From: Bacteroidota bacterium
GTDB taxonomy: Bacteria > Bacteroidota > Bacteroidia > B-17B0 > Aurantibacillaceae
Assembly: GCA_018267825.1 (NCBI GenBank)
Contig: JAFDXR010000008.1
Location: forward strand, 186,001-250,000
DNA: 64,000 nt
Direction: 5' to 3'
Shown: piece by piece, positions 1 through 16,077 of the stretch
How positions within the stretch are numbered: the stretch's first letter is position 1
Layout: the number at the start of each line of letters is the position of its first letter
The notes under the pieces: model-generated
What the model was told of the DNA's origin: nothing
Seen by the model: only the letters and a program-made list of their open reading frames with translations
Databases searched by the model: none
Translations under genes and position numbers: made by a program

Positions 1-468
1 GATACAGCGCTCACATTTGCCAAAAGCTGGAACGGCGCATTACAATGGATTGCACAAAGCCCTTACCGTAAATTCCATAAACGCAAGAATTGGTTTATCG
101 GCATTCATACGATACACAAACAAGAGGAATCGTCGTGGAATGAGAAGGACATCCGTTTTAAAACCTGCCGCTCATCCGGACCCGGAGGTCAGCATGTCAA
201 TAAAACAGAAACCGCTGTTCATGCCACACACATACCCTCAGGGATTTACGTACTCGCAAGCGATTCACGTTCGCAGGCACTTAACAAACAAACAGCTATA
301 GAGCGTCTCCAAACCAAGGTGCGTCAATGGCAACAGGAACAACATTATAAACTGGGTCATACCGATCCCTGGGAAAATCATCACTCACTGGTGCGTGGTA
401 ATCCACAGCGAACGTATAAAGGCCCTCAATTCAAACTATATTCTTATGGAACAGAATTTATTGCATAA
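1..468 (+). CDS. prfH: Peptide chain release factor homologue PrfH (5' end outside window)
   Basis: The first 155 visible codons, open from base 1 to a TAA at 466-468, carry the class I release-factor catalytic loop: the GGQ tripeptide sits at residues 62-64 of the fragment, inside SGPGGQHVNKTETAV. The C-terminal tail (WQQEQHYKLGHTDPWENH) is short and lacks the extended tail of RF1/RF2, as in the PrfH branch. PrfH homologues are encoded beside the RNA ligase RtcB and are known to release peptides from ribosomes whose 16S decoding centre has been cut, so that RtcB can reseal the rRNA. RtcB would be expected just left of this window, which I cannot see. The gene overlaps the next one by 23 bases, so the two are probably co-translated. 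Confidence 0.9.
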   Translation, partial: DTALTFAKSWNGALQWIAQSPYRKFHKRKNWFIGIHTIHKQEESSWNEKDIRFKTCRSSGPGGQHVNKTETAVHATHIPSGIYVLASDSRSQALNKQTAIERLQTKVRQWQQEQHYKLGHTDPWENHHSLVRGNPQRTYKGPQFKLYSYGTEFIA

Positions 469-2509
469 ACATATTGTAATTAAAAAACAGAAACTGGAAG
501 AAATCCGGCACACACTGAAAAATCAGTTCATCGGGCTTGATGCCGTCATTGACGAAGTGATGAGTTTTGTAAGTACCTGGTACCTCTTTCCGGAAGCGCA
601 ATTCCGGCCGACGGTGATTAACCTCTGGGGCATGACAGGCTCCGGAAAAACAGCACTGATCCAAAAACTCATTGAGTTACTCGACTACAAAAAACTCTAT
701 GCACAGATGGACATGGGTGAATTCGAATCAGACTCTGCTTCCTGGATTAAATCCACTTTCACAGGTGACCTCGAATTTTTCGACAACCAAGCCTGTGTTC
801 TCTGTCTCGATGAGTTTCAGTTTGCCCGTACGCTCGACAACAACGGCAATGAACTTGGCAAAGATAAACTGCGTGTAATCTGGGACCTGATCGACAGCGG
901 GAAAATCAACTACATCCCCGGAAGCAATTCCTATTACCTGCGCAGAGCCGAACTCTGCCTTAAAAATCTGCTTCGTGCAGAAGCCGGGCAGGTGGTTATA
1001 CGCCATGGTCAAGTTGTAGAGAATGCTGACCTTTTTCTTGAAATTTTTAAAGGGTTCTACTTCGACGATCAGTGGCGCTACAACGAAGCCATCAGTAAAG
1101 ACTATTTCCTCTCTAAAGATTTTATCGAGGGCATACATGATCTGTACAACGATGAGAACCTGAGTCGTGAAATACTGAAAGAAAAAATTCAAAGTTCAGG
1201 AATCCAGGATTTACTGATCCTCCTGGCCGAAGGCATTAAAACCCTGACCGGTGTCAAACAAATGAACCTGTCGAAAGCCCTCATCTTTATTCTCGGCAAC
1301 CTCGATGAAGCCTTCTACATGAGCGGAAGCCTGAACCCCGATATCAGTGCCGACGAGTTATACGAAGCGACTTCGCGCATCAATATTTCTCACATCAAAG
1401 CAGCGCTCAAAAAACGCTTCCGGCATGAACAGATTGCCCGCCTCGGGAATAACCACATCATTTACAAGTCCTTTACCAATGCACATTTCCGCGAACTGAT
1501 CCGCAGAGAACTGCAACGCGTAAGCGACTACATGCAAAATGAATTCGGGTTCACACTTCAATACCACAGCAGCATCCATGAGTTGGTGTATAACGAAGGT
1601 GTGTTTCCTACACAGGGAACCCGGCCGGTTCTGACAACAGTTAAAAACCTCATTGAAACCTGGCTTGGTAAACTGGCTGTAGAATGTATCGAAAAAGACA
1701 TGAAGGTATCTGCCGTTGACTGGAGCTACTGCGACGACAAATATGTGTTTGTGTTCAAAGACAGAAGCAACCAGGTACTGAACATCTATGAAGAACCTGT
1801 AAATCTGAAAATCGACAGCCTGCGCAAATCGGGTAATGAAAACATACAGGCACACACCGCAGTGCATGAGGCCGGGCATGCTATCCTGGCAGCACTCACT
1901 CTGCGGATTCTGCCGTCGGTTGTTCTCTCCAAAACCGCCGCCGACAATTGCGACGGATTCTGTCTGGTGAATTTTCCGGAAGACTTAACAACCCGCGAAG
2001 TCCTGAAAAAAGATATTGTGATCTCACTGGGTGGATACGTTGCTGAAAAAATGATCTTCGGGGCAGAAAATACATCATCAGGGGTATACAGCGACCTGGA
2101 GAATGCCAGCTCACTGGCCAATAAAGCCATCAAATACTACGGCATGGGAAGCGATCCGCTCCACATCGCAGTAAATGCAGCAAACAACAATGAATACTTT
2201 TTCAACAAGGCTCATCATCACGAAGAAGCACTCAACCTCATCCAATCGTGCGTGAAAACCGCTGAAGAAATATTAGATGCCAACAAACTGCTTTTACTCA
2301 AAATGTCGGAATACCTGAGTTGTCATAACCGTATGGAAGAGGCGCTGATCGGTCAGTTTATCAGGGAGTACAGCGTGGAAGCGTGGGTAAAAACAGAGGG
2401 ATTTATCCGGAAAGAAAACTATTTCTCATTTCACCAGGAGATAAAAAAACAGATTAACGAACTGGAACATCATCCTCACTCGTTGAGAAAACAAATTATG
2501 AAAATTTAA
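446..2509 (+). CDS. Soluble Hsp100-type AAA+ ATPase fused to an M41 metalloprotease
   Basis: 687 residues from the ATG at 446, which overlaps the prfH stop; an in-frame ATG at 395 lies deeper inside prfH and is less likely. The motor has Walker A GMTGSGKT (62-69), Walker B VLCLDEF (D122, E123), a sensor-1-like FILGNLDEAF (about 278-288), an arginine-rich KKRFRHEQIARLG (about 322-334) and a GTRP sensor-2-like motif (about 391). These resemble Clp/Hsp100 proteins rather than FtsH. The C-terminal half is an intact M41 peptidase: HEAGH at 474-478, LGGYVAEKMIFG near 530, and SGVYSDLENAS supplying the third zinc-ligand Asp. There is no transmembrane segment, unlike FtsH. It is probably an ATP-dependent cytosolic protease; its substrate is unknown. 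The link to PrfH suggests a role at damaged ribosomes. Confidence 0.85.
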   Translation: MEQNLLHKHIVIKKQKLEEIRHTLKNQFIGLDAVIDEVMSFVSTWYLFPEAQFRPTVINLWGMTGSGKTALIQKLIELLDYKKLYAQMDMGEFESDSASWIKSTFTGDLEFFDNQACVLCLDEFQFARTLDNNGNELGKDKLRVIWDLIDSGKINYIPGSNSYYLRRAELCLKNLLRAEAGQVVIRHGQVVENADLFLEIFKGFYFDDQWRYNEAISKDYFLSKDFIEGIHDLYNDENLSREILKEKIQSSGIQDLLILLAEGIKTLTGVKQMNLSKALIFILGNLDEAFYMSGSLNPDISADELYEATSRINISHIKAALKKRFRHEQIARLGNNHIIYKSFTNAHFRELIRRELQRVSDYMQNEFGFTLQYHSSIHELVYNEGVFPTQGTRPVLTTVKNLIETWLGKLAVECIEKDMKVSAVDWSYCDDKYVFVFKDRSNQVLNIYEEPVNLKIDSLRKSGNENIQAHTAVHEAGHAILAALTLRILPSVVLSKTAADNCDGFCLVNFPEDLTTREVLKKDIVISLGGYVAEKMIFGAENTSSGVYSDLENASSLANKAIKYYGMGSDPLHIAVNAANNNEYFFNKAHHHEEALNLIQSCVKTAEEILDANKLLLLKMSEYLSCHNRMEEALIGQFIREYSVEAWVKTEGFIRKENYFSFHQEIKKQINELEHHPHSLRKQIMKI

Positions 2510-2522
2510 AATAAATTTAAAT

Positions 2523-2562
2523 AAGCTCTGAACATATTGATTTTACTGTATATTCAGAGCTA
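2523..2562. terminator. Inverted repeat behind the AAA+/M41 gene
   Basis: AGCTCTGAA and TTCAGAGCT form a perfect 9-bp stem that continues imperfectly inward (ATA/TAT). It lies about 15 bases after the protease stop. No T run follows, so it may be a weak terminator, an RNA-stabilising end or an operator upstream of the promoter at 2613. Confidence 0.5.
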
Positions 2563-2612
2563 TGCATGTTTTACATTTCAAAATTATTTTACCCGGATTT
2601 AAAAATTTACTC

Positions 2613-2642
2613 TTGACAAATGATTTTTTTGATTTACATTTG
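2613..2642 (+). promoter_or_regulatory. Strong Bacteroidota-type promoter
   Basis: TTGAC at 2613-2617 and TACATTTG at 2635-2642, with exactly 19 bases between the TTG and the -7 element. This matches the TTG-N19-TANNTTTG consensus of Bacteroidota sigma-ABfr. It would start a transcript near 2648, just ahead of the leader ORF at 2668 and the attenuator-like hairpins, running toward the DinB gene and perhaps the tRNA array. Confidence 0.75.
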
Positions 2643-2667
2643 CATCAGAAAATTAAAAAAACAAAAC

Positions 2668-2748
2668 ATGAACACAAGTTTCACATATCCGTCAATCATA
2701 GGCCAGCCGCGGTTTTCGTCGCTATACTGGCATATAGGGGTGTGTTAA
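2668..2748 (+). CDS. Putative 26-residue leader peptide
   Basis: ATG at 2668 begins MNTSFTYPSIIGQPRF and ends SSLYWHIGVC before TAA at 2746-2748. It lies about 20 bases downstream of the predicted transcription start and is followed by a strong intrinsic terminator at 2772-2799. This layout, promoter then short ORF then terminator, is that of a translation-controlled attenuator. The peptide is rich in aromatic residues (F, Y, F, Y, W) and ends Y-W-H, but I do not recognise it as a known biosynthetic leader. It could also be a chance ORF in a short non-coding RNA. Confidence 0.4.
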   Translation: MNTSFTYPSIIGQPRFSSLYWHIGVC

Positions 2749-2771
2749 TGTGTGCAAACATACGAACGAAT

Positions 2772-2799
2772 AAAACCCCGGCTATACCCGGGGTTTTTT
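2772..2799 (+). terminator. Intrinsic terminator / attenuator hairpin 1
   Basis: AAAACCCCGG and CCGGGG with a short loop, followed by six T residues at 2794-2799. It comes 24 bases after the leader ORF stop. Confidence 0.8.
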
Positions 2800-2810
2800 A
2801 TTTAAAAAAG

Positions 2811-2861
2811 ATGCGACAGTATTTATCCAGTAAACTATTTTATAAACCGGGCGATGCCTGA
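2811..2861 (+). CDS. Possible second short leader ORF (16 residues)
   Basis: ATG at 2811 encodes MRQYLSSKLFYKPGDA and stops with TGA at 2859-2861. It sits between terminator hairpins 1 and 2, so the short-ORF-then-hairpin pattern occurs twice in a row. There is no further support for translation and confidence is low. Confidence 0.25.
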   Translation: MRQYLSSKLFYKPGDA

Positions 2862-2893
2862 TGTGAGATCGTGCGTACTATTGAACAACAATG

Positions 2894-2922
2894 GCCCGGT
2901 CTCAGCAAGACCGGGCTTTTTT
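2894..2922 (+). terminator. Intrinsic terminator / attenuator hairpin 2
   Basis: GCCCGGTCT pairs perfectly with AGACCGGGC across a 5-base loop and is followed by six T residues (2917-2922). It lies 34 bases before the DinB-family start codon, so transcription into that gene must pass it. Its CCCGGTC core recurs in the hairpin at 3597. Confidence 0.85.
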
Positions 2923-2955
2923 ATGACTAAAACAAAAAACAGGGAAGGAGGTAAT

Positions 2956-3564
2956 ATGGAAAAAATCAAACAGGAGCTGATCATGGCTTTCAACAGTACC
3001 GACAGCTGGTTCAATAAACCGGCAGAAATAACAACATACAAACCTGCTACAGGGTGGAGCATCAGACAGGTGCTCGAACATGTGGTACTGACCAATCATT
3101 ACCTCCTTCTCCTGATCGTTAAAGGCAAGAAGCTGGCGCTGAAAAAGTCGGCCGGAGCAGAGGCTGCCGTTTTTCCGAAAGACTATGACACCACACTGGA
3201 AAAACTTAAAGTCATCGGTGAGCATGGATCGTTCGAATGGATGCGACCCGCACACATGGAACCCGCAGGAACATTTGCACCTATGGAAGTGCGATTGCTG
3301 CTGCAGTATCAGATGGCAAAGTGTCTCGCTATATTACGCGATCTGCCCCATGGTGAAGGTTTGTTTCATACCACCACCATGTCGGTAAATGCACTTGGCA
3401 AATTGGATGTGTATCAGTACATCTATTTTCTGGCCATGCACATGAAGCGGCATAACACCCAGATGGAGCGCCTGGAAAGCCTGTATTTTGAGGGCCTGGC
3501 TAACATACCCGGTAAAATAACCAGTGTAAGCAACAGTTCGCTTTCATCAGACATCATTACATAA
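2956..3564 (+). CDS. DinB-fold protein (DinB_2/DfsB-like)
   Basis: 202 residues from the ATG at 2956, chosen because a near-perfect Shine-Dalgarno (GGAAGGAGGT) ends four bases before it; such ribosome sites are uncommon in Bacteroidota, where most starts lack them. The sequence matches the DinB four-helix family: YKPATGWSIRQVLEHVVL near the N-terminus and MHMKRHNTQMERL near the C-terminus supply the histidines that usually form the metal triad. Members include thiol-dependent enzymes and many stress-linked proteins of unknown reaction; no substrate can be assigned. It lies between two similar terminator hairpins (2894 and 3597), as a self-contained cassette inside the RNA-repair and tRNA region. 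Confidence 0.75.
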   Translation: MEKIKQELIMAFNSTDSWFNKPAEITTYKPATGWSIRQVLEHVVLTNHYLLLLIVKGKKLALKKSAGAEAAVFPKDYDTTLEKLKVIGEHGSFEWMRPAHMEPAGTFAPMEVRLLLQYQMAKCLAILRDLPHGEGLFHTTTMSVNALGKLDVYQYIYFLAMHMKRHNTQMERLESLYFEGLANIPGKITSVSNSSLSSDIIT

Positions 3565-3596
3565 GGACCACGACAAACCCATTCGGTTTGCATCTG

Positions 3597-3623
3597 ACCC
3601 GGTCCTGTAAGACCGGGTTTTTT
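3597..3623 (+). terminator. Intrinsic terminator after the DinB gene (hairpin 3)
   Basis: ACCCGGTC and GACCGGGT enclose a 6-base loop, with a T run at 3618-3623. Its stem core CCCGGTC/GACCGGG is identical to that of hairpin 2, so the DinB gene is bracketed by near-copies of one hairpin. Confidence 0.85.
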
Positions 3624-3659
3624 GTGATAAGCAAAAGCCACTGCCGTATAAAAACAGTG

Positions 3660-3722
3660 ATGCGATAACGCTCCTGGTTACAGACGGATTTTGACCCGTA
3701 CCGGAAGAGTTAAATTATCGCA
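3660..3722 (+). ncRNA. tRNA-like fold without a T arm (tentative)
   Basis: ATGCGATAA (3660-3668) and TTATCGCAT (3715-3723) are a perfect 9-bp outer stem, the length of an acceptor helix plus two pairs. Between them ACGG/CCGT closes an 8-base loop ATTTTGAC resembling an anticodon loop. There is no TTCGA loop and no clear D arm, so this is either a degenerate tRNA, a mimic or chance. It sits 10 bases before the first tRNA of the array. Confidence 0.3.
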
Positions 3723-3732
3723 TGCGGAAAAC

Positions 3733-3806
3733 ACCTCCTTAGCGCAACGGGTAGAGGCAATAGTTTCAGAAACTATACAGTGCCAGTTCGAATCTGGCAG
3801 GAGGTA
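3733..3806 (+). tRNA. tRNA-Leu(CAG), atypical class I shape
   Basis: Acceptor ACCTCCT/AGGAGGT (7 bp), anticodon stem ATAGT/ACTAT with loop TTCAGAA (anticodon CAG at 3767-3769), T arm GCCAG-TTCGAAT-CTGGC. The variable region is only 5 bases, although leucine tRNAs are class II with a long variable arm. The D stem is poorly paired and the first pair is A1-U72. The anticodon says Leu but the body does not. Confidence 0.75.
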
Positions 3807-3814
3807 CAACATAC

Positions 3815-3901
3815 GGAAGGCAGGCAAATATTGGTTTGTTGCGGCATCCTGCTAAGATGTTCCGCTGCATAGCGGTGATGGTTCGATTCCATCGTCTTCC
3901 G
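3815..3901 (+). tRNA. tRNA-Ser(GCT)
   Basis: Acceptor GGAAGGC/GTCTTCC, D stem GCAA/TTGC, anticodon stem GCATC/GATGT with anticodon GCT at 3851-3853, a long variable arm with CCGCT/AGCGG, and T arm GATGG-TTCGATT-CCATC. It is a normal class II serine tRNA reading AGC/AGU, with discriminator G and no encoded CCA. Confidence 0.9.
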
Positions 3902-3908
3902 CAAATAC

Positions 3909-3990
3909 GGAGAGTAGCGTACAGTGGCGTACAACCAGACCTGAACTCTGGGGCACTCGTCAAGAGGGGGTTCGATTCCTATACTCTCCG
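3909..3990 (+). tRNA. tRNA-Ser(TGA) with C33
   Basis: Acceptor GGAGAGT/ACTCTCC is perfect. Anticodon stem CCAGA/TCTGG holds loop CCTGAAC, giving anticodon TGA at 3942-3944 and C at position 33 where nearly all elongator tRNAs have U. The variable arm is long (class II), the T stem has one G-A mismatch, and the D arm is irregular. A weakened or non-decoding serine tRNA is possible. Confidence 0.75.
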
Positions 3991-4023
3991 CAAAACGATG
4001 AACAGAAACAGGTTCGTCAAAAC

Positions 4024-4097
4024 CGGGTGGTGACTAAGGTTTAAAGCGCGGATGCATTGGAAGCATCTGTCAGCAGGTTCGATGCCTGCTCACCCGA
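4024..4097 (+). tRNA. tRNA-Pro(TGG), first copy, degenerate D arm
   Basis: Acceptor CGGGTGG/TCACCCG with one G-U pair, anticodon stem GATGC/GCATC with loop ATTGGAA (TGG at 4058-4060), T arm GCAGG-TTCGATG-CCTGC, discriminator A. C1-G72 fits bacterial proline tRNAs. The D arm does not pair well, in contrast to the second proline tRNA at 4184. Confidence 0.8.
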
Positions 4098-4100
4098 CAC

Positions 4101-4173
4101 TGGGATATAGCTCAACGGTGAGAGCAGGTGCCTTATACGCATCAGGTTACAGGTTCAAGCCCTGTTATCCCAA
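4101..4173 (+). tRNA. tRNA-Ile(TAT)
   Basis: Canonical cloverleaf: acceptor TGGGATA/TATCCCA, D stem GCTC/GAGC, anticodon stem GGTGC/GCATC with loop CTTATAC (anticodon TAT at 4134-4136), T arm ACAGG-TTCAAGC-CCTGT. Most bacteria read AUA with a lysidine-modified CAU tRNA and avoid a UAU anticodon. U1-A72 is also unusual for isoleucine. Confidence 0.85.
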
Positions 4174-4183
4174 CTAAAAAAAC

Positions 4184-4256
4184 CGGGAGGTATTTCAATT
4201 GGTAGATGGGGTGCTTTGGGAGCATCCGGCTGCAGGTTCGAGTCCTGTCCTCCCGA
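4184..4256 (+). tRNA. tRNA-Pro(TGG), second copy
   Basis: Acceptor CGGGAGG/CCTCCCG, anticodon stem GGTGC/GCATC with loop TTTGGGA (TGG at 4217-4219), T arm GCAGG-TTCGAGT-CCTGT, discriminator A. It shares the anticodon with the copy at 4024 but differs through most of the body, so it is not a recent tandem duplicate. Confidence 0.9.
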
Positions 4257-4261
4257 CAAAT

Positions 4262-4334
4262 GGTGAGATTGGTGTAAGGGTTAACACCGCGGCCTGTGAA
4301 GCCGCTGATACGAGTTCGAGTCTCTTATCTCACC
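4262..4334 (+). tRNA. tRNA-His(GTG)
   Basis: Acceptor GTGAGAT/ATCTCAC with an encoded G at -1 (4262) opposite C73 (4334), the histidine identity pair. D stem GTGT/ACAC, anticodon stem GCGGC/GCCGC with loop CTGTGAA (GTG at 4296-4298). The T stem has one C-U mismatch. Confidence 0.9.
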
Positions 4335-4339
4335 CATAC

Positions 4340-4412
4340 AGACAAGTAGCAAACGTGGTGAATGCGCCCCGCTGAAAACGGGAAGATTGTGGTTCGACTC
4401 CACACTTGTCTG
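4340..4412 (+). tRNA. tRNA-Phe(GAA)
   Basis: Acceptor AGACAAG/CTTGTCT, short D stem GCA/TGC, anticodon loop CTGAAAA (GAA at 4374-4376) on a four-pair stem CCCG/CGGG with a C-A mismatch at 27-43, T arm TGTGG-TTCGACT-CCACA. A1-U72 is unusual; most phenylalanine tRNAs begin with G. Confidence 0.85.
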
Positions 4413-4416
4413 CAAA

Positions 4417-4490
4417 CGGTTTGTAGCTCAATTGGATGGAGCACCCGGTTACGACCCGGGAGGATTAAGGTTCGAATCCTTACAAACCGA
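4417..4490 (+). tRNA. tRNA-Arg(ACG)
   Basis: Fully canonical: acceptor CGGTTTG/CAAACCG, D stem GCTC/GAGC, anticodon stem CCCGG/CCGGG with anticodon ACG at 4451-4453 (A34 normally edited to inosine by TadA), T arm TAAGG-TTCGAAT-CCTTA, discriminator A. Confidence 0.92.
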
Positions 4491-4497
4491 CAAAAAC

Positions 4498-4579
4498 GGG
4501 AGTGCGCTAACGATGGAGAGTTAGGATAGTCTGTAAAACTATTGCCCCGGCTGAGCAGGTTCAAATCCCGCCACTCCCA
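4498..4579 (+). tRNA. tRNA-Tyr(GTA)
   Basis: Acceptor GGGAGTG/CACTCCC, D stem CTAAC/GTTAG, anticodon stem ATAGT/ACTAT with loop CTGTAAA (GTA at 4533-4535), a class II variable arm (GCC/GGC) as in bacterial tyrosine tRNAs, and T loop TTCAAAT on a stem with one A-C mismatch. It is the last well-formed member of the array. Confidence 0.9.
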
Positions 4580-4787
4580 CACGTTCTTTTAAAAAACTGT
4601 TTCGCCTTGTGAAACAAAGATCTTCCTTTTACAGGGAAGCGCAGTATGTAAATGCACAAATGCCTGGTTGCTGGTGTTATCACCACATAGTATGGTCTGT
4701 CACTGATATTCCATATGCTGCAGATGCGGGTTTAGCATACCACCATGTGTTGTCTGGCAGGGGTTCGACTCCCTTTCACCGTTGTTA
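4580..4787 (+). other. Structured non-coding stretch with an orphan tRNA T arm
   Basis: No credible protein gene. It contains hairpins GTTTC/GAAAC (near 4600), CTTCC/GGAAG with an 8-base loop TTTTACAG (near 4623-4640), GGTG/CACC (near 4673-4684), and a well-formed T arm AGGGG-TTCGACT-CCCTT at 4759-4775. No matching acceptor or anticodon arm for a normal tRNA could be found upstream. It reads as remnants of, or variations on, tRNA genes. Confidence 0.5.
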
Positions 4788-4848
4788 CGGCGATAGCTCA
4801 GTGGTAGAGCAACAACAAAACATGCAGGTTCGAATCCTGCTCCGATTA
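4788..4848 (+). ncRNA. tRNA-like element lacking an anticodon arm
   Basis: A textbook D arm (TAGCTC-AGTGGTA-GAGC, 4794-4810) is followed after only 13 A-rich bases by a perfect T arm (GCAGG-TTCGAAT-CCTGC, 4824-4840). A normal tRNA needs about 23 bases there, so the anticodon stem is missing. The two putative acceptor strands do not pair, as if two different tRNA halves were joined. Confidence 0.55.
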
Positions 4849-4849
4849 C

Positions 4850-4915
4850 GCTCGGATAGCCAAACTGGTAGAGGCAATGGACTCAAAATCCATGTTAGAG
4901 AAGCTGTCAACTTCT
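4850..4915 (+). ncRNA. tRNA-Leu(CAA)-like 5' portion with an altered 3' half
   Basis: GCTCGGA would be the 5' acceptor strand, followed by a leucine-type D arm and anticodon stem ATGGA/TCCAT with loop CTCAAAA (anticodon CAA at 4884-4886). In place of the T arm is AGAAG-CTGTCAA-CTTCT (4899-4915), with T-arm geometry (5 bp, 7-base loop) but without the TTCGA sequence. No 3' acceptor strand follows. Pseudo-tRNA or mimic. Confidence 0.55.
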
Positions 4916-5164
4916 TTAAAAAAGACAAAAAAGAAAAGGCGGAATTCCCTGTTTGCAAAGCACACGGTGGCTGGCAAACAGTCTGAAAGAAACCTGTTGT
5001 ACGCAGATACCGTATCGGCAAATAGGCTGCTTGATGTAATCCAGCCGGTGCACAACACCAAACGGCACGATTACAAAAACCGGCATAGGAGGCCTATACT
5101 TAAGCAGTGCAGCCCTTTCCGGAGGATGGGAGTTGATTCCTTTTCTTTTTAACAGGTGAGCTCA
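4916..5164. other. Non-coding stretch upstream of the slipin gene
   Basis: No supported gene. Visible structure includes TGTTTGC/GCAAACA (near 4948-4982), GGCTG/CAGCC (near 5024-5045), GGTG/CACC (near 5046-5060) and ATAGG/CCTAT (near 5085-5097). An open frame of about 90 codons runs through it but starts inside the tRNA-Leu-like anticodon arm and is very basic and low in complexity, so I do not call it. Confidence 0.4.
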
Positions 5165-5187
5165 GCCGGAACCAGGAAAGTTCCGGC
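5165..5187 (+). promoter_or_regulatory. Leader hairpin before the slipin gene
   Basis: GCCGGAAC and GTTCCGGC form a perfect 8-bp stem with loop CAGGAAA. An A-rich run rather than a T run follows, and the slipin ATG comes 38 bases later, so this is more likely a 5' leader structure or processing site than a terminator. Confidence 0.55.
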
Positions 5188-5224
5188 AATTAAATAAAAA
5201 ACAACAAAGCAAAAAAACAAAACA

Positions 5225-6325
5225 ATGAAACGTATAAAAATTAATGCCTGGAAAAAAGGCCTCGTGTTCAAAAATGACTCCTATAAAAGAATCCTGGGCG
5301 AAGGTGCCCACTGGTTGATGCCGTTCGAATACCTGATGGAATGCGACATGGCAAAGCCTTTTATTTCGCCTGTAAACCTGAATATTCTGCTGAAAGATGA
5401 ACAATTTACAAACGAAACCATCATCGTAGATGTCAGGAACCATGAGATCGCCCTCCACTATGAAAATGGCCTCTTTACCGGTGTGCTCATTCCCGGAAGG
5501 CATGTCTTCTGGAAAGGCCTCATCGACTACAGCTTCAGGATCGTTGACCTGAACAGTATTGATATTGATATCGGCATTGATAAATCCCTGTTCTCAAAAC
5601 GTGAACTGGCGCTATATATCAGGTCATATACCATCGAAGCGCACGAGAAAGCCGTGATGTACGTCGACGGGAAATTCAACAAAATAGTTGATCCCGGCAC
5701 TTATCACTACTGGAAAAACGCAACCTCTATTGCTCTTTCAAGGGCGGATATGAGGAGCATGCAACTCGAAATCTCCGGACAGGAAATCCTGACCCGCGAT
5801 AAAGCAGCGCTGAGGGTTAACTTCTATGTACAGTACAGCATCCGGGATGTTGTGAAAGCCATTGTAAAAAACAAGGACTACGACAAACAACTCTATACCC
5901 TGATGCAGCTGGCCCTGCGTGAGTTTATCGGTGGCATGAGTCTGGATGAGCTCCTCGAAAAAAAAGAGCAGATATCGGAGCACATCAACCTGGCTGTAGC
6001 GGAAAAAGCAGAGGCCCTGGGAATTGGAATCAGTCATAGTGGCATCAGGGATATTATACTCCCCGGCGACATGAAAGAAATTATGAACCAGGTACTGGTA
6101 GCAGAAAAAAAAGCGCAGGCAAACACCATCATGCGCAGGGAAGAAACTGCCTCTACCAGAAGCCTGTTGAATACCGCTAAACTCATGGAGGATAATGCCA
6201 TGCTGTTTAAACTGAAAGAAATGGAATATGTGGAAAAGATTGCGGAAAAGATCAATACCATTTCTCTCTCAGGTGGCTCCCAGGTTGTAGACCAGCTGAA
6301 AGACATATTCAGTCCGCGCAAATAA
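5225..6325 (+). CDS. Slipin / SPFH (band-7) family protein
   Basis: 366 residues. The central part (about 140-290) is an SPFH domain (EISGQEILTRDKAALRVNF, then YTLMQLALREFIGGMSLDELL), followed by a charged, Ala/Glu-rich helical segment (AEKKAQANTIMRREE) expected to form a coiled coil. The N-terminus is unusual: a short motif of the form K-G-L-V-F...G.G.HW recurs three times (about 9-31, 73-98 and 139-164; each ends in GAHW, GRHVFW or GTYHYW). No transmembrane helix is visible, so membrane contact would be peripheral. Slipins are recurrent partners of RtcB RNA-repair operons, as I recall, which fits the nearby prfH. It lies between the tRNA array and tRNA-Gln. Confidence 0.85.
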   Translation: MKRIKINAWKKGLVFKNDSYKRILGEGAHWLMPFEYLMECDMAKPFISPVNLNILLKDEQFTNETIIVDVRNHEIALHYENGLFTGVLIPGRHVFWKGLIDYSFRIVDLNSIDIDIGIDKSLFSKRELALYIRSYTIEAHEKAVMYVDGKFNKIVDPGTYHYWKNATSIALSRADMRSMQLEISGQEILTRDKAALRVNFYVQYSIRDVVKAIVKNKDYDKQLYTLMQLALREFIGGMSLDELLEKKEQISEHINLAVAEKAEALGIGISHSGIRDIILPGDMKEIMNQVLVAEKKAQANTIMRREETASTRSLLNTAKLMEDNAMLFKLKEMEYVEKIAEKINTISLSGGSQVVDQLKDIFSPRK

Positions 6326-6402
6326 CCCTCCTGTAAAGAGTGGCTTCTGATAAAGATGCTTTTAAATTCCCTACATCAAAAAGGAAGCTGCTCTTTTTAA
6401 AT

Positions 6403-6474
6403 TGCCCTTTCGTCTAAATGGCAGGACACCGCTCTTTGACAGCGTGAATCGTGGTTCGAATCCATGAAGGGCAA
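6403..6474 (+). tRNA. tRNA-Gln(TTG)
   Basis: Acceptor TGCCCTT/AAGGGCA with U1-A72 as expected for glutamine, D stem GTC/GAC, anticodon loop CTTTGAC (TTG at 6436-6438) on stem CGCT/AGCG, T arm CGTGG-TTCGAAT-CCATG. It stands alone 77 bases after the slipin stop and closes the tRNA-rich island. Confidence 0.9.
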
Positions 6475-6476
6475 CC

Positions 6477-7076
6477 TCAGTTTTTCTTTTTACGGTTTTC
6501 CATATATTTCACATGGATTCCGATCTCGTCGTCGATTGTCCGGATTTTGGAGCTGTATTGGTTTTCAGAAAGGATCAGGCGTTTACGATCTTCCGGATCG
6601 AGTGTGTTTATATATTCATATCCTGCCGGGGCACTGTAAGCTGCACCCAGTGCTCCAGTAAATGTCATCACGGGATGATCATTCCGGTCAAATAAAGTCA
6701 GGTACAGCAACTTCATCTGTACACGCCTGCCTGTGTGCTGATGCGCCCATTGCCTGGAAATTCTGAATGGATAAGCAATTTCGAGAGGCACATTCAGTGA
6801 ACGGTCATACACCGTAACAGTCATGGAACTTTCCTGCCCGTATACATTGACTTTAAACCGTAACAAAAAATAAATAAGGAAACAGATCGCCGCAAATCCA
6901 CCTACTGCCAGCAGGTAATAATTTTCAGTGCCTTTCATAGATGGCGGGGCTTTGGGGCCTGCATAGGCAATAACACCATAAAATACAGCAGCTACTATGC
7001 CCAGGGCCATCATAAATCCAAGCAGGTTCGCGTGCCTTTGTTTCAGACCGTAGCATGAAAAATCAGTTGTGTACAT
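6477..7076 (-). CDS. Hypothetical membrane protein
   Basis: 199 residues from ATG 7076; an upstream in-frame start at 7142 would place a terminator hairpin inside the gene, so the shorter start is preferred. Two hydrophobic segments (LLGFMMALGIVAAVFYGVIA and YLLAVGGFAAICFLIYFLL) separated by a short loop are followed by a soluble domain of about 110 residues rich in beta-strand-like sequence, ending in basic residues (ENRKKKN). I recognise no family. It converges on tRNA-Gln, ending 2 bases from it, and marks the edge of the tRNA island. Confidence 0.6.
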   Translation of the reverse strand: MYTTDFSCYGLKQRHANLLGFMMALGIVAAVFYGVIAYAGPKAPPSMKGTENYYLLAVGGFAAICFLIYFLLRFKVNVYGQESSMTVTVYDRSLNVPLEIAYPFRISRQWAHQHTGRRVQMKLLYLTLFDRNDHPVMTFTGALGAAYSAPAGYEYINTLDPEDRKRLILSENQYSSKIRTIDDEIGIHVKYMENRKKKN

Positions 7077-7106
7077 ACATGTGTAGTTTAACATAAATAT
7101 ACAAAA

Positions 7107-7138
7107 AAGAGAACAGGGTCCCCCAACCCTGTTCTCTA
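7107..7138 (-). terminator. Intrinsic terminator read on the minus strand
   Basis: GAGAACAGGGT pairs with ACCCTGTTCTC across a short C-rich loop; on the minus strand the stem is followed by TTTTTTGT. It lies between the divergent SRPBCC gene and the membrane-protein gene, with no minus-strand gene directly upstream to terminate, so it may end a small RNA or act as a leader attenuator. Confidence 0.7.
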
Positions 7139-7237
7139 ACACACACTAAAACACAAACACCTGACCTAAATGGTATCCGGTCTTATCTATATAAACACAA
7201 TCCGGTAACAAGCATCAGAAAACCCCTGAAAAAAAAT

Positions 7238-7268
7238 TTGCGTAACCAAATGGTTTCATATATATTTG
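7238..7268 (+). promoter_or_regulatory. Promoter of the SRPBCC gene
   Basis: TTG at 7238-7240 and TATATTTG at 7261-7268 with a 20-base spacer match the Bacteroidota consensus. The gene starts 33 bases downstream. Confidence 0.7.
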
Positions 7269-7283
7269 TAACCATATTGTTAC
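7242..7283 (+). promoter_or_regulatory. Tandem ArsR-like operators
   Basis: Two imperfect palindromes, GTAACCAAATGGTTTC (7242-7257) and GTAACCATATTGTTAC (7268-7283), flank the -7 element with 26 bp between centres. The shared half-site GTAACCA resembles sites of ArsR/SmtB repressors that often control SRPBCC/AHSA1 genes. No ArsR gene is seen nearby, so the repressor would be encoded elsewhere. Confidence 0.55.
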
Positions 7284-7301
7284 ATATTAATCATTTTAAT
7301 C

Positions 7302-7739
7302 ATGAAAGAACAAGCGCCATTTACCATAGAAAGAACTTACACGGCCTCTGCGTCGCGTGTTTGGAAAGCCATTACCAATAAAGAAGACATGAAGCTCTGG
7401 TATTTCGATCTGAAAGAATTCAGAGCTGAAGTGGGTTTTGAATTTGAGTTCACCGGTGGCAGTGAAACAAAATCGCATCTGCACCTGTGTCGCGTGACAG
7501 AAGTTGTTCCCGGCAAAAAAATAACCTACAGCTGGCGCTACGACGGCTATGAAGGCATCTCCTATGTGAGCTTCGAATTATTTGAAGAAGGAACGCAGAC
7601 CCGCTTAAAGCTTACACACAGCGGACTGGAAAGTTTCCCGAAAGAGGTTCCGGATTTTGCCCGCCACAATTTCGAAGCAGGCTGGACACACATCATCGGC
7701 ACATCGCTTCAGGCCTTTCTGGAAAAACCAGCTGCCTGA
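7302..7739 (+). CDS. SRPBCC domain protein (AHSA1-like)
   Basis: 145 residues, the size of a single START/Bet v1-like (SRPBCC) domain. Family marks are the N-terminal FTIERTYTASASRVWKAIT with a Trp after the first helix, VTEVVPGKKITYSWRYDGYE in the middle, and a C-terminal helix NFEAGWTHIIGTSLQAFLE. These proteins enclose a hydrophobic ligand or assist chaperone-like functions; the ligand here is unknown. The tandem palindromes over its promoter suggest repression by an ArsR-family protein. It stands alone, convergent with the LOG-family gene. Confidence 0.85.
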   Translation: MKEQAPFTIERTYTASASRVWKAITNKEDMKLWYFDLKEFRAEVGFEFEFTGGSETKSHLHLCRVTEVVPGKKITYSWRYDGYEGISYVSFELFEEGTQTRLKLTHSGLESFPKEVPDFARHNFEAGWTHIIGTSLQAFLEKPAA

Positions 7740-7755
7740 TAAAGCATACAGGACA

Positions 7756-8337
7756 TCAGGTTGTTTCGTCGGTGATCCATTGGGGCGCCGGCGGAGCCTG
7801 GTAAACTCGCATCTTTTGCAGCAACTCGTCGATACTTTCTGAAACAAGGATCATATCCTGATTTATCTTTTTAAGAAATCCATGAGAAACCATATGCTCA
7901 CCCAATTGGAGCAAATGTGTGTAAAAGTTATTGACATTGAGGATTCCCATTGGTTTACGGTGCAGCCCCAGCTGCCCCCAGGTGAGTACTTCAAAGAGTT
8001 CTTCCATCGTGCCAAAACCACCGGGTAATGTAATAAATCCATCACAGAGTTCATTCATTTTCAATTTCCGTTCGTGCATGGTGTTCACCATCATGAGCTC
8101 CGTGAGCCCACTGTGTGCAATTTCCTTTGAGCCGAGAAACTTCGGCAATACGCCGATAACACGGCCACCCTCCGACAATACGCCATCCGCTACAGCTCCC
8201 ATCAGCCCTACCCTGGCGCCACCATATACCAGCTCTATGTTTTGTTTCCCCAATGTTTGCCCTACACGGTATGCCTGCTCCATATACACAGGCTCTTCTC
8301 CCGGACTTGATCCGCAAAATACAGTAATACGTTTCAT
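7756..8337 (-). CDS. LOG-family (TIGR00730) nucleoside 5'-monophosphate phosphoribohydrolase
   Basis: 193 residues with the family signatures GGARVGLMG (about 41-49) and PGGFGTMEE (about 105-113), which bind the phosphate and ribose and provide catalysis. The fold is Rossmann-like. Relatives cleave cytokinin riboside or other nucleoside monophosphates to free base and ribose 5-phosphate; in bacteria the role is probably nucleotide turnover. Its start overlaps the stop of the upstream MocR-type gene by 4 bases (ATGA), so the two are likely translated together. The pairing may be organisational only. Confidence 0.9.
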   Translation of the reverse strand: MKRITVFCGSSPGEEPVYMEQAYRVGQTLGKQNIELVYGGARVGLMGAVADGVLSEGGRVIGVLPKFLGSKEIAHSGLTELMMVNTMHERKLKMNELCDGFITLPGGFGTMEELFEVLTWGQLGLHRKPMGILNVNNFYTHLLQLGEHMVSHGFLKKINQDMILVSESIDELLQKMRVYQAPPAPQWITDETT

Positions 8338-9797
8338 TTACGATGTTTTTGTTTTTTTATAATGGCTTCTTTCACCAGTGTCCCCAGTGTTTTCAGACTT
8401 CTGTCAATTTCTTTGGAATAAGGCATTCCGAAACTGATCCGCATGCAATTTTCGAAACGTGCATCCGTACTGAAGATCTGCCCCGGTGCTATGCTGATAT
8501 GATGTTCCATGGCCTCCTGAAATATATCAAACGCATTAACCTTCCTGTTCATTTCCACCCAAAGCACATACCCTCCCTGCGGGCGACTCACCTTAGTATC
8601 CGGCGGAAAATACGTTGTGATTGCCTGGGTATAAAGCAGACACTGCGTATAAAGTGCTTTCCGCAACTGGCGCATATGAAGGTCCACGCGGCCTTTTTCA
8701 AAAAACAGCCCGATAGCAGCCTGTGTCGGTGTAGCTGAAGATACTGCATGCATGAGTTTCATTTGTAAGACCTTGTCTTTATACTTTCCCGGAATGCACC
8801 AACCCACACGGTATCCCGGGGCCAGCGATTTTGAAACAGAGGCACATAAAAGCACCAGTCCTTTTTTGTCGTAACTCTTGCAGGTATGCGGCCGTGTCTT
8901 TCCAAAATAAAGCTCTCCGTAAATATCGTCTTCGATTAATGGGATCTCCTTTGCAGCAAGCATTTTCACGAGTCGTTTCTTATTCTCCTCCGGCATACAT
9001 GAGCCCAGTGGATTATTGAAATTGGTAACAAACAAGCAGGCTTTGATCTTCACACGGTCAATGGCTTTCTGCAGATAGTCAAGGTCCACGCCGGTATCAA
9101 CGGTTGGAATCTCGAGTACTTTCAAACCGAGGCTCTGCATGACGTTGAAAATTCCGAAATACGTCGGGCATTCGATGGCTACCGTATCCCCGGGCTCTGT
9201 AACCGCCTTCAGGCAAAATACCAGGGCCTCCATGCAACCTTGCGTGGTTACAACATCATGCTCATTGATATTGCCCCCCCAGTTGAAAGCATAACGCGCA
9301 ATCTGTTTACGTAACATCACGTTACCCTGTATACGCTCATAGCCGATACAACTGTCGGGGCTCCGGCGGATGGCTTCATGCATAGCCTTGTTTAGTTTAG
9401 CTTCCGGCAATAGCTCTGTAGCCGGTGCTGCCAGTGATAAACGCACAATGCCTTCTTCTTTCAGGTTTTCATATACCAGCGCAATCATCTCATCGACTTT
9501 CACTTTTTTAGGATCGCGGTATTCGTGATGCACTACCGGAACCGGCAGAAACTCCCCCGGTGTATACCGCACATAGTATCCCGACTTCGGACGAGCCTCA
9601 ATCAATCCCTTTCCTTCCAGCTCCAGGTAAGCCTTGAAAGCCGTACTCATACTGATGTCCTGCTCCTTGCTGAGACTCCGTACGGAAGGCAGTTTCTGTC
9701 CCGTTTTCAATACACCCTGGGCGATCATAGATTCCAGCTTCTCCGAAACCTGCTGATACAAAAACTCATCGTGGCTGACAACCCATTTTGTTTTCAT
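8334..9797 (-). CDS. MocR-type regulator (GntR HTH fused to class I aminotransferase)
   Basis: 487 residues. Residues 13-80 are a GntR winged helix (LPSVRSLSKEQDISMSTAFKA). The rest is a fold-type I aminotransferase domain with GCMEALVFCLKA, NFNNPLGSCMP, and the PLP lysine K323 in SVSKSLAPGYRVGW. MocR proteins are usually transcription factors that sense PLP or an amino compound rather than active enzymes. It diverges from ilvE across a 150-bp spacer with long inverted repeats, so ilvE and itself are the likely targets. A -7-like TATGTTTG is on the minus strand at 9849-9856. Confidence 0.9.
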   Translation of the reverse strand: MKTKWVVSHDEFLYQQVSEKLESMIAQGVLKTGQKLPSVRSLSKEQDISMSTAFKAYLELEGKGLIEARPKSGYYVRYTPGEFLPVPVVHHEYRDPKKVKVDEMIALVYENLKEEGIVRLSLAAPATELLPEAKLNKAMHEAIRRSPDSCIGYERIQGNVMLRKQIARYAFNWGGNINEHDVVTTQGCMEALVFCLKAVTEPGDTVAIECPTYFGIFNVMQSLGLKVLEIPTVDTGVDLDYLQKAIDRVKIKACLFVTNFNNPLGSCMPEENKKRLVKMLAAKEIPLIEDDIYGELYFGKTRPHTCKSYDKKGLVLLCASVSKSLAPGYRVGWCIPGKYKDKVLQMKLMHAVSSATPTQAAIGLFFEKGRVDLHMRQLRKALYTQCLLYTQAITTYFPPDTKVSRPQGGYVLWVEMNRKVNAFDIFQEAMEHHISIAPGQIFSTDARFENCMRISFGMPYSKEIDRSLKTLGTLVKEAIIKKQKHRK

Positions 9798-9809
9798 GAA
9801 AATCTGTTA

Positions 9810-9910
9810 TGCTTATTTTATCGAAAACTGCATCTGTTTTCTTTTATACAAACATAGGAAATTTGTTTAACCAAATCCTCAACATGATGTTATAAAATAA
9901 GCACATCATG
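9810..9910. promoter_or_regulatory. Inverted repeats in the mocR-ilvE divergent promoter
   Basis: TGCTTATTTTAT (9810-9821) and ATAAAATAAGCA (9892-9903) are perfect 12-bp inverted copies 70 bp apart. CATGATG (9883-9889) and CATCATG (9904-9910) are a second inverted pair overlapping the right copy. MocR proteins bind paired distant half-sites, so these are good operator candidates. Confidence 0.55.
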
Positions 9911-9947
9911 CTCCGAACCCGGGAAATAACCAAAAAAAACATATACC

Positions 9948-11024
9948 ATGATTGCAACAGAAAAATTTGCTGTGCGCCACACCAGCCAGAGCCGCCTGCA
10001 CGAAGTCGATTTCAGTGCTATTGATTTCGGCAAAATTGTTTCAGACCACATGCTGGTTGCACACTATAAAAACGGTCAATGGCAGGAGCCAGAGATCGTT
10101 CCCTATGGTCATATCAGTTTATCGCCTACAGCCCTTTCACTTCACTACGGGCAAACCGTTTTTGAAGGTATGAAAGCCTTTCGCATGAAAAACGGCAATA
10201 TCTCTGTATTCCGCATGGAAAAACATTTCGATCGTTTTGGTAAGTCGCTGGAACGCCTGTGTATGCCACAGGTACCATACGAATACTTTACAGAAGGCAT
10301 TAAACAACTTGTAGAGCTGGATGCTGCCTGGGTCTCGGGCAACGAAGGTGCATCACTCTATATCCGTCCTTTCGTGTTTGCATCGAACGAAGAACGCTTT
10401 GGGGTACACGAATCGGAGGAATATACCTTTATGGTTTTTACCGGGCCGGTAAGTCCTTATTATACAAAACCCATTCGCGTGAAGGTGGAAGACAAATACC
10501 ATCGTGCCGTTCACGGGGGAACTGGTTTTGCGAAATGTGGCGGAAACTACGGTGCTTCTTTCTACCCGACCAAAATGGCCCGCGAACAGGGCTTCGACCA
10601 GGTTCTGTGGGCCGACAACACACCTGAACTGAACATCGAAGAATCCGGCACCATGAACGTGATGTTTGTGATAGACGGTGTGGTAATAACGCCTGAACTT
10701 ACGGATACTATTCTCGATGGTGTAACCCGCGACTCTTTCCTGACTATAGCCGGCTCCCTGGGATATAAAACAGAAGAACGAAAAATAAGCGCACGCGAAC
10801 TGGCACATGCAGCTGAAAAAGGTTTATTGCAGGAAGCTTTTGGCGTAGGAACTGCCGCCGTGGCTGCTCCGATACGAAGTATCCATATCCAGGGCATCAA
10901 TTATAATATACCGGAATCCGGAGCCCATAGCTTCATGCACCAGGCCAAAACCCTGCTGGCTGATATACGCTCCGGATGGGCATCAGACATGTTTCACTGG
11001 AATACGGTGATTGAACTGGACTAA
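9948..11024 (+). CDS. ilvE: Branched-chain amino acid aminotransferase
   Basis: 358 residues, fold-type IV PLP enzyme of the longer BCAT subgroup. It shows LHYGQTVFEGMKAFR (about 65-79), SLYIRPFVFASNEERFGV, the PLP lysine K196 in FAKCGGNYGAS, and LNIEESGTMNVMFVI. It transfers the amino group between glutamate and the 2-oxoacids of Leu, Ile and Val, the last step of branched-chain synthesis. It is transcribed away from a MocR-type regulator, which probably adjusts it to PLP or amino acid supply. No other ilv or leu gene is nearby. Confidence 0.93.
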   Translation: MIATEKFAVRHTSQSRLHEVDFSAIDFGKIVSDHMLVAHYKNGQWQEPEIVPYGHISLSPTALSLHYGQTVFEGMKAFRMKNGNISVFRMEKHFDRFGKSLERLCMPQVPYEYFTEGIKQLVELDAAWVSGNEGASLYIRPFVFASNEERFGVHESEEYTFMVFTGPVSPYYTKPIRVKVEDKYHRAVHGGTGFAKCGGNYGASFYPTKMAREQGFDQVLWADNTPELNIEESGTMNVMFVIDGVVITPELTDTILDGVTRDSFLTIAGSLGYKTEERKISARELAHAAEKGLLQEAFGVGTAAVAAPIRSIHIQGINYNIPESGAHSFMHQAKTLLADIRSGWASDMFHWNTVIELD

Positions 11025-14833: not shown

Positions 14834-15009
14834 GTGTACGTCCTCTTAACAAATCAGCAGGAGCAAATCAAAAGTAAACAAATGCAGAAAAGGATACAAA
14901 CCAAGCAGATTTTAAACGTTTGAAACCGGTTCGATGGAGTATGCCATGGTTACTCCGCATGCATTGGATTTTACGGAATGTCTCCTTTCCGGTCGACATG
15001 ACAGGAAGA
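14834..15009. other. Intergenic spacer
   Basis: 176 bases between two leftward genes. It contains an ACCGGTT-like stretch near 14925 but no convincing hairpin with a T run and no clear -7 motif. I see nothing further to call. Confidence 0.4.
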
Positions 15010-16077
15010 TTAAGGCTTTTGCGAATGCGTCACCTGGAAGCCGCCAAGGGTTAAGGAATAGGCCGTAGATCCGGGCTGATCACGTTCATTACCATCCACG
15101 GTTTTAACACCGGCCTTGTTCAGGTTTTTGAGTGCTTTGCCGGCCATGGCCCAGAGGTTGTTCTTTTTCGGCGCCTTTGCTTCATCATCATCGTCTGATT
15201 CAATCACAGTAAGCGGTTGCGCTTTGGATGGTGCATTGAGTGCGAGGGTATTCACCGGCTGATTGGTTTCAGGATGGTTAACCACAGGCGCCTGGTTTTG
15301 CTGACTGTTGGTGTTCGTCGATGTGGCCAGGGCTTCCGGTGCATTTTCATTTACGTTTTCTTTTTCAATGTGCTCAGGCAAATTATTTGTGCCCGGCACA
15401 TGCGTATGGTGCTCTGATTTCGCAATCAGGTTTTCGTTCCCGCTACTTAAAGGCTGTTTTTCATTAGTCGGGTCGATGTTCCTCTGTTCCTGATCAGGGT
15501 TTACAATAGCATGAGCAGGCGATACCGGTTGATGCTTCACGGTAGTGACTGCCAGTGCCGGTACATCGGAGGTGTTTCGCTGACTGATCCACAATGCCGA
15601 TAAACCCAGTAAAAGCAGGAGGGCTGCCGCTGCAGCATAACGTGTTGCCGATGCATAGAGCCATACCACACGGTTTTTACGTTTCAGATCATCTTTGGCA
15701 TCAAACACAAGCGACAGATCAGGAACCATCACCGTGCGTTTGTATAATTCCAATTCGCGTTGCAACACAGGATTACCGGATATACTCTTTTCAATACTGT
15801 TTTTTTCAATATCCGATAATTGCCCTTCAATATAAGCCACCATCTGTTCTTCGCTCACCAGATCGGCTTCGGTGCGCTTCAATTGTTGCTTGCCGTCGAA
15901 ACGAACATCGTCGGCCACAACGGTAAGCTCTTTGAGCTCATCAAGATCTACCGCCAGCTCCGGGTGCTGGGCCAGAAACAGGATCAGTTCCGCCGTAATT
16001 TCTGCAGAGAGAGTTCCCTCCGCATAGTCGAGCAGAAATGCTTCATAGTTTGATGTATCTATCCTGTTGGTGTTCAT
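15010..16077 (-). CDS. Probable anti-sigma factor with one transmembrane helix
   Basis: 355 residues. The N-terminal 130 are acidic and helical (YEAFLLDYAEGTLSAEITAE, like FecR/anti-sigma N-termini). One membrane helix follows (AAAAALLLLLGLSALWI, about 152-168), then a low-complexity Asn/Gln/Pro/Glu-rich periplasmic stretch and a short conserved-looking tail (KNNLWAMAGKALKNLNKAG). The ATG directly follows the TAA of the ECF sigma gene (TAAATG), which is the main reason to call it that sigma factor's membrane-bound regulator. No zinc-binding HxxxCxxC motif is seen. Confidence 0.7.
   Translation of the reverse strand: MNTNRIDTSNYEAFLLDYAEGTLSAEITAELILFLAQHPELAVDLDELKELTVVADDVRFDGKQQLKRTEADLVSEEQMVAYIEGQLSDIEKNSIEKSISGNPVLQRELELYKRTVMVPDLSLVFDAKDDLKRKNRVVWLYASATRYAAAAALLLLLGLSALWISQRNTSDVPALAVTTVKHQPVSPAHAIVNPDQEQRNIDPTNEKQPLSSGNENLIAKSEHHTHVPGTNNLPEHIEKENVNENAPEALATSTNTNSQQNQAPVVNHPETNQPVNTLALNAPSKAQPLTVIESDDDDEAKAPKKNNLWAMAGKALKNLNKAGVKTVDGNERDQPGSTAYSLTLGGFQVTHSQKP

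Follow-up and report, generated by a model that had tools for sequence, protein, structure and literature searches.

A candidate modular translation-damage response in a Bacteroidota genome, with a tRNA array predicted to be under codon-panel attenuators

We analyzed a stretch of 64,000 nucleotides from a Bacteroidota bacterium (contig JAFDXR010000008.1, positions 186,001 to 250,000; hereafter, the window), together with the sequence to its left and related loci in other genomes. At the left end of the window lies an island of genes and RNAs that are encoded on one strand in the order rtcB2 (outside the window), prfH, a gene for an AAA+/M41 protease, a promoter with leader open reading frames (ORFs) (positions 2613 to 2922), a DinB_2-domain gene, a terminator, ten tRNA genes, a tRNA-like RNA, a slipin gene, and a tRNA-Gln gene. 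The evidence presented below suggests, with a probability of roughly 60%, that this island is a modular translation-damage response whose tRNA array is controlled by a trp-type attenuator, the leaders of which carry a panel of codons for the array's own tRNAs.

Genes and RNAs of the island

An earlier note, made from the letters of the window, had listed prfH, the protease, a leader region, ten packed tRNA genes, slipin, and a lone tRNA-Gln on one strand with little else between them. Profile, ARAGORN, and Rfam matches agree with that list, to which the DinB_2 gene and the terminator immediately 5′ of the array have to be added. The note had also predicted rtcB to the left of base 1, and we found it directly before prfH (C32:184341-185744, equivalent to L003:8341-9744), with a gap of 19 bp; it encodes a second-type RtcB (RtcB2) of 467 amino acids. 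The gene for peptide chain release factor H (full ORF, L003:9764-10468) starts outside the window, which holds the C-terminal 155 of its 234 residues (positions 1 to 468, plus strand, as for all features below). Despite this truncation, PrfH scored 181.5 bits against TIGR03072, above the equivalog cutoff of 166.65. By analogy with the known pair, PrfH and RtcB2 are expected to release the peptide and reseal cleaved 16S rRNA. Beside rtcB, on the minus strand (L003:5302-5946 and 6002-7747), are two nuclease-type genes, one with an eCIS_core domain and a weak match to DNA/RNA nonspecific endonucleases and the other resembling WHH/colicin-DNase nucleases; these may possibly be exported nucleases that neighbor the repair operon.

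The start of the third gene (446 to 2509) overlaps the end of prfH. Its product is an AAA+ protein (Hsp100 D2-like) fused to an M41 zinc protease domain (PF01434 Peptidase_M41, 1.6e-17), with a ClpB/TssH-like middle part. The Walker A, Walker B, and HExxH motifs and the distal Asp are invariant across nine AAA/M41 homologues, and an AlphaFold model (pLDDT of 68, used for domain assignment only) resembles both the protease domain of FtsH (2di4) and ClpB NBD2/Skd3. The full-length FtsH_fam score was 54.6 bits, far below the cutoff of 600, and the AAA+ part is ClpB-like. By analogy, it would unfold and degrade protein, perhaps the released chain.

The ten-tRNA array (3733 to 4580) comprises Leu(CAG), Ser(GCU), Ser(UGA) (3909 to 3991), Pro-like(UGG) (4024 to 4097), Ile(UAU), Pro(UGG), His(GUG), Phe(GAA), Arg(ACG), and Tyr(GUA). 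Eight of these were called by ARAGORN, Rfam added the gene at 4024 to 4097, and Ser(UGA) was recognized by eye and by orthology, which bears out the count of ten. Elsewhere in the genome, housekeeping tRNAs cover 29 anticodons, and Ile(UAU) is the only one that the array adds. Thus, the array is surplus to the housekeeping set, and it does not behave as a housekeeping operon that supplies isoacceptors not encoded elsewhere. Most of its tRNAs read codons starting with C or T, with Ser(AGY) and Ile(AUA) in addition. A second array near the slipin gene of locus L158 holds Lys, Thr, Trp, Gly, Ile(GAU), Met, Val, and Arg(UCU), a near complement of the first, and the two arrays of this locus (L158, reversed, 9058-10271 and 14018-15581) divide the tRNA set nearly by first codon base (C/T versus A/G). 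Between orthologous array tRNAs, stems differ by 133 compensatory and 24 one-sided changes, an excess that indicates selection on the fold, although the stems were chosen by ARAGORN, so that broken pairs are undercounted, and pairwise counts repeat shared changes. In two genera, Pro and Tyr array tRNAs carry a small hairpin, TCACG...CGTGA, with the same stem, inserted in the T loop (L037:16083-16610; L158, reversed, 9598-9700); this may be a mobile palindromic element or an alteration under selection.

Downstream of the array is a tRNA-like stretch (about 4590 to 5150) that includes an RNA with a D arm and a T arm and no anticodon arm (4789 to 4847; partial match to RF00005). An alignment of slipin upstream regions showed that this RNA is kept 5′ of the slipin gene in relatives. 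The slipin itself (5225 to 6325) belongs to the SPFH/Band 7 family (PF01145, 2.8e-34) and weakly matches HflK. The tRNA-Gln(UUG) gene that follows (6403 to 6476; ARAGORN) is orthologous to the Gln tRNA gene that opens the array in most relatives.

Leader ORFs and putative attenuators

Upstream of rtcB2 we found a promoter, TTGAC-TAnnTTTG or a variant, followed by a ten-codon ORF and a terminator. The ORF is present at the ten rtcB2 loci with upstream sequence and has the pattern MLVxNxHTKP before its stop codon: MMVNLTHIKP in the window genome and MLVAKFNTKP, MMVNLSHIKP, MLVLNSNTKP, MLVLNLNTKP, MLVLHSNKKP, MLVGNLHTKP, MLVVNLHTKP, MLALNQHTKF, and the variant MLVFSLHIPK elsewhere. Codon changes are often synonymous (TTA/TTG, AAA/AAG, CCT/CCG), the pattern of selection for coding. 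A competing pairing, TTAAGCCGG:CCGGTTTAA, joins a segment that spans the leader stop codon (TTAAGCCGG) to the 5′ arm of the terminator (CCGGTTTAA), and compensatory versions of it occur in L035 and L046 (Fisher P = 2e-4). A covariance model built from nine of these leaders, run on 87 genomes of the family, gave nine matches above 100 bits, all nine of them at rtcB2; one of the nine, at 114 bits, came from a genome outside the training set.

The array has leaders of its own, and the leader region that had been proposed here proved real. A Bacteroidota-type promoter (TTGAC...TAnnTTTG; 2613 to 2642), of which the promoter upstream of rtcB is a near-identical copy, precedes leader ORF 1 (2668 to 2748), which encodes MNTSFTYPSIIGQPRFSSLYWHIGVC. 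Intrinsic terminator 1 follows (2772 to 2799), and its 5′ arm, AACCCCGG, is able to pair with the terminal GGGGTG of leader 1. Leader ORF 2 (2811 to 2861) encodes MRQYLSSKLFYKPGDA and has a terminal CCGGGC, a possible pairing partner of GCCCGG, the 5′ arm of terminator 2 (2893 to 2922). Next come the DinB_2-domain gene (2956 to 3564; PF12867, 2e-7), in the place where relatives have an RNA ligase, and the third terminator (3596 to 3623), at a place where a third leader ORF is found in relatives, along with GGATTGG as an anti-terminator arm. A single operon from prfH to tRNA-Gln was considered and rejected, given the separate promoters and terminators.

Leader 1 has homologues at five other loci, with the peptides MKNSLTYLQIIRQSVLSPFHVYIGLC (L036, GTG start), MKHCFTYHAELSQIGRSPLLDLWGI (L037), MLIQSTYKIFISPLSRLFDKGFRCKE (L118), MKISATYLQSTLVIGFSPALRATVGVC (L157), and MQNLVITYRHNSLDPKGFSGMLYTLGE (L158). 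Thr-Tyr is the only part common to all six, and the array leaders are too diverged for the synonymous-change test that was applied to the rtcB leader. What they share is codon content. When codons were grouped into 24 isoacceptor classes, the arrays of the six loci amounted to 61 locus-isoacceptor classes, and leader 1 contained codons for 59 of them (34.7 under a codon-usage null, with a maximum of 48 in 100,000), including all 10 classes of the window array. Between Thr-Tyr and the terminal arm, 69 of 101 codons are cognate to array tRNAs, compared with 36 expected. Leader 2, a second ORF that follows the first terminator at all six loci, covers 55 of 61 classes (null, 34.2; maximum, 48), with 8 of the 10 window classes in 15 codons, and leaders 1 and 2 combined cover 61 of 61. 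Leader 3, which precedes the array at five loci, covers 47 of 50 (null, 25.8; maximum, 38), its start codon having been picked by eye where several were possible; in L157, 17 codons suffice for all 11 array classes. The tests of leaders 2 and 3, two of the three, were made after the hypothesis had been formed from leader 1. Because the codon-usage-only null was judged too generous, two controls were added. Length-matched small ORFs from the same loci had lower coverage (Fisher P = 4e-9 for leaders 1 and 2 and 2e-7 for leader 3), and label permutation, which holds leader diversity fixed, still gave an array-specific excess (P = 4e-4 and P = 8e-4 for leaders 1 and 2, respectively). At L158, the array lacks Ile(UAU) and leader 1 lacks AUA.

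Intrinsic terminators are present between leader and gene, with the exception of leader 2 of L157, which has no clear terminator. After the stop codon of leader 3 there is an invariant GGATTGG, and the terminator arms CCGGTCC, CCGATCC, and CCAATCC can each pair with it. For leaders 1 and 2, the competing pairing of the stop region gave combined P values of 0.003 and 0.018, respectively. Just 5′ of the RNA ligase gene of relatives, we also noted a sequence, GGTGTCTCAGTACC and variants of it, that is conserved and leads into a hairpin (L036:11420-11470; L118, reversed, 455-575; L157:8270-8340; L159, reversed, 95-150), which is possibly another regulatory element.

Recurrence in other genomes

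The AAA/M41 protein had high scores in 8 of the 87 family genomes (the same 87 that an order-level search covers), with one 38% relative in addition, and was also found in Cytophagales, Chryseolinea, and Ignavibacteria records. These genomes and a collection of 84,980 species together yielded only about ten close relatives; the remaining matches were FtsH-like. The order rtcB-(prfH)-AAA/M41 occurs at nine loci besides that of the window, with prfH in between at eight, and rtcB lies upstream of AAA/M41 everywhere except at L044 and L041. The latter encodes the 38% relative (L041:8844-10955) near genes that by eye resemble a WYL regulator, a nuclease, and a helicase; this protein may possibly serve another defense system.

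Arrays of tRNA genes lie downstream of AAA/M41 in L036 and L037, beside RtcB1 in L040, and elsewhere in the same genome for L035 (array L157) and L038 (array L118). Relatives have, between leader and array, a gene for an ATP-dependent RNA ligase (DRB0094 family), joined at two loci by one for a Thg1-like enzyme. Most genomes with the rtcB-(prfH)-AAA/M41 order also hold orthologous arrays, the RNA ligase, the Thg1-like enzyme, Ro60/TROVE, RlaP, and slipin. Among the 87 genomes, rtcB2/AAA-M41, recognized by protein or leader, and the RNA ligase tend to share carriers, with an overlap of 5 of 7 (P = 6.6e-5). The same modules recur in genomes G023, G067, G072, G082, and G033, and in G067 all of them fall within about 35 kb. 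The earlier note had tied its reading to an rtcB upstream and to the fusion and tRNA clusters recurring in relatives, and each of these was found. Its picture of one coordinated island holds insofar as the modules recur together; they do not form one operon, since promoter and putative attenuator are each present twice in nearly the same form, once for rtcB2-prfH-AAA/M41 and once for the array. Slipin and its tRNA-like RNA likewise recur with the operon, near RtcB, TROVE, or WYL genes.

On another contig of the window genome (C31), a second locus contains a WYL regulator, Ro60/TROVE, a degenerate tRNA-like sequence, tRNA-Lys, RtcB1, and two RlaP nucleotidyltransferases. A motif, GTGCCGTA...ATAC(T/A)TCG, recurs where TROVE and RtcB1 are separated by degenerate tRNA-like pieces (L106, reversed, 6868-7640; L040, reversed, 820-1830) and is a candidate for a Ro60-bound Y-like RNA. 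A palindrome, TGCGCAATTACACTGCGCA, 5′ of RtcB1 (L106, reversed, 7780-7868; L039, reversed, 2312-2430) is a possible operator of the WYL regulator. Outside the family, WYL, RtcB1, and RlaP genes adjoin 20 tRNAs (L147), TROVE adjoins 23 tRNAs (L150), and two array-type tRNAs lie with slipin and RtcB1 (L144); these three loci came from a search with the Ile(UAU) anticodon arm, most matches of which were due to chance. A search of 395 class-level genomes with the RNA ligase (P0001) gave five strong matches outside the family (58 to 65% identity) and three weaker ones, with no tRNA array near any of them.

Proposed mechanism, alternatives, and known systems

We propose that the island is a translation-damage response built from separately switched modules. 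In the first (rtcB2-prfH-AAA/M41), cleaved rRNA would be repaired and the stalled peptide released, with the product probably degraded. The second would provide a backup set of divergent tRNAs, accompanied in relatives by the RNA ligase and the Thg1-like repair enzyme. Each would have a strong promoter from which transcription is normally ended early by ribosome-mediated attenuation: a ribosome that finishes the leader ORF would cover the stop-codon region and let the terminator form, whereas one that stalls within the leader would leave this region free to pair with the 5′ arm of the terminator, so that transcription continues. Since the array leaders hold at least one codon per array tRNA type, running short of any one panel tRNA, as might happen when an anticodon nuclease is at work, would switch on all of the replacement tRNAs. 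The more specific proposal, that the tandem leaders, in which about ten tRNAs are each represented by one codon or more, are a multiplexed sensor of tRNA integrity that releases matching backup tRNAs and RNA-repair enzymes, seems to us somewhat better than an even bet. What the sequences show directly is the order of the genes and its recurrence, the leaders and their terminators, the codon coverage, and the preserved fold of the tRNAs; from these we infer leader translation, the switch itself, the inducing damage, and the function of the array tRNAs.

Several observations weigh against this proposal. Random small ORFs at these loci outscore the codon-usage null, so the P values from that null are optimistic, and the six array-leader loci are not fully independent, as all come from one family. 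The pairing tests for leaders 1 and 2 were not significant in L037 and L118, nor was that for leader 2 in L157 and L158. Leader 1 of L118 and of L157 has no His codon, leader 2 of L158 contains AUA, which limits the AUA match to leader 1, and the window has neither leader 3 nor the RNA ligase. Every array tRNA-Leu (3733 to 3807 in the window, and those of relatives) has the short variable arm of class I, unlike the usual bacterial tRNA-Leu, which makes its charging uncertain. Finally, the leaders are diverse overall, matching 17 to 20 of the 24 codon classes.

This diversity keeps one alternative serious, namely, that the attenuators answer any slowdown of translation (ribosome antibiotics, cleaved 16S rRNA, or starvation) and that the match to the array is a by-product of a diverse leader. 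Small upstream ORFs of antibiotic-resistance operons respond to slowed translation, and the rtcB leader, besides being short, is without an array that it could match. In Anabaena, moreover, translation antibiotics relieve a single repressor that controls a tRNA array together with rtcB and a slipin gene (PMC10272220). We nevertheless give this general sensor only about one chance in four, because array classes are overrepresented in leaders 1 and 2 beyond general diversity and because leader 3 of L157 is so densely packed with the array's own classes.

A less likely alternative is that the array and the tRNA-like RNAs are decoys that soak up invading tRNA nucleases, with induction restocking those consumed. 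Array tRNAs are only 60 to 69% identical to any housekeeping tRNA, tRNA-Leu lacks the long variable arm, some members have insertions in the T or anticodon loop, and the RNA that accompanies slipin is missing its anticodon arm. Against this, anticodons and stems are conserved between genomes by the compensatory changes described above, Tyr and Ser retain long variable arms, and anticodon loops are mostly normal. The earlier note had left replacement and decoy side by side; the array does duplicate housekeeping tRNAs and keep their fold, and replacement is favored because the stems are preserved and the leaders call for exactly the array tRNAs. That unrelated stress genes merely adjoin the decaying tRNA array of some mobile element is very improbable: gene order is not fixed between genomes, some arrays have interrupted tRNAs, and the 38% AAA/M41 relative sits in an apparent defense island without rtcB, yet operon order recurs, mostly in genomes that have arrays as well, carriers of AAA/M41-rtcB2 tend to carry the array RNA ligase too, and the modules have promoters and leaders in common.

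If replacement under codon-panel control is correct, it would bear on how bacteria sense and survive tRNA cleavage: many tRNAs could be monitored at once without a dedicated protein, and divergent tRNA arrays would be tied to defense against tRNases. The closest known relative of the first module is RtcB2-PrfH of Escherichia coli ATCC 25922 (PMC9223846, PMC6514570, PMC1586002), which likewise has adjacent rtcB and prfH genes. The locus described here differs in its attenuator with a leader peptide and in the AAA+/M41 protease, a third partner added to the pair; M41 is not mentioned in the main text of a paper that lists RtcB2-PrfH accessory genes. In E. coli, RtcB2-PrfH protects from 16S cleavage and not from the tRNA-cutting colicins tested (PMC9223846), so a supply of tRNAs from the array would complement it. 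The protease and slipin recall FtsH with HflK/HflC, through the M41 domain with HExxH and distal Asp and the weak HflK match, but the AAA+ part is ClpB/Skd3-like.

Burroughs and Aravind (2016) reportedly described SPFH/Band-7 and Ro60/TROVE RNA-repair systems with noncoding RNAs. The slipin and its conserved tRNA-like RNA, which the earlier note had counted as part of the island, presumably match this separate kind of module, a likeness that concerns the module and not the published RNA itself. TROVE, RlaP, and RtcB1 are likewise present, on another contig; the difference is that slipin and its RNA here share one neighborhood with rtcB2-prfH and a tRNA array. In enterobacteria, the protein RtcR is a sensor of damaged tRNA. 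In the Anabaena trn operon and TrcR regulon, rtcB, a slipin gene, and a tRNA array that is normally silent are controlled jointly and induced by translational stress (PMC10272220), but that regulon is repressor controlled and scattered over the genome, whereas the genes here are linked and have attenuators.

The component families of the island are already known, and the new element would be codon-panel control of a tRNA array, for which we found no precedent in the literature searched, which covered few subscription papers. Its nearest counterparts are the ribosome-mediated transcription attenuators of the trp, his, and ilv leaders, the theory of which is treated in PMC1183508. The likeness lies in a leader ORF, a terminator, a competing pairing of the stop codon, and, in the array leaders, regulatory codons that match the controlled product. 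Those leaders test one or few types of codon, whereas those of the array contain many and come as two or three in tandem, and the product here would be the tRNAs themselves, together with repair enzymes.

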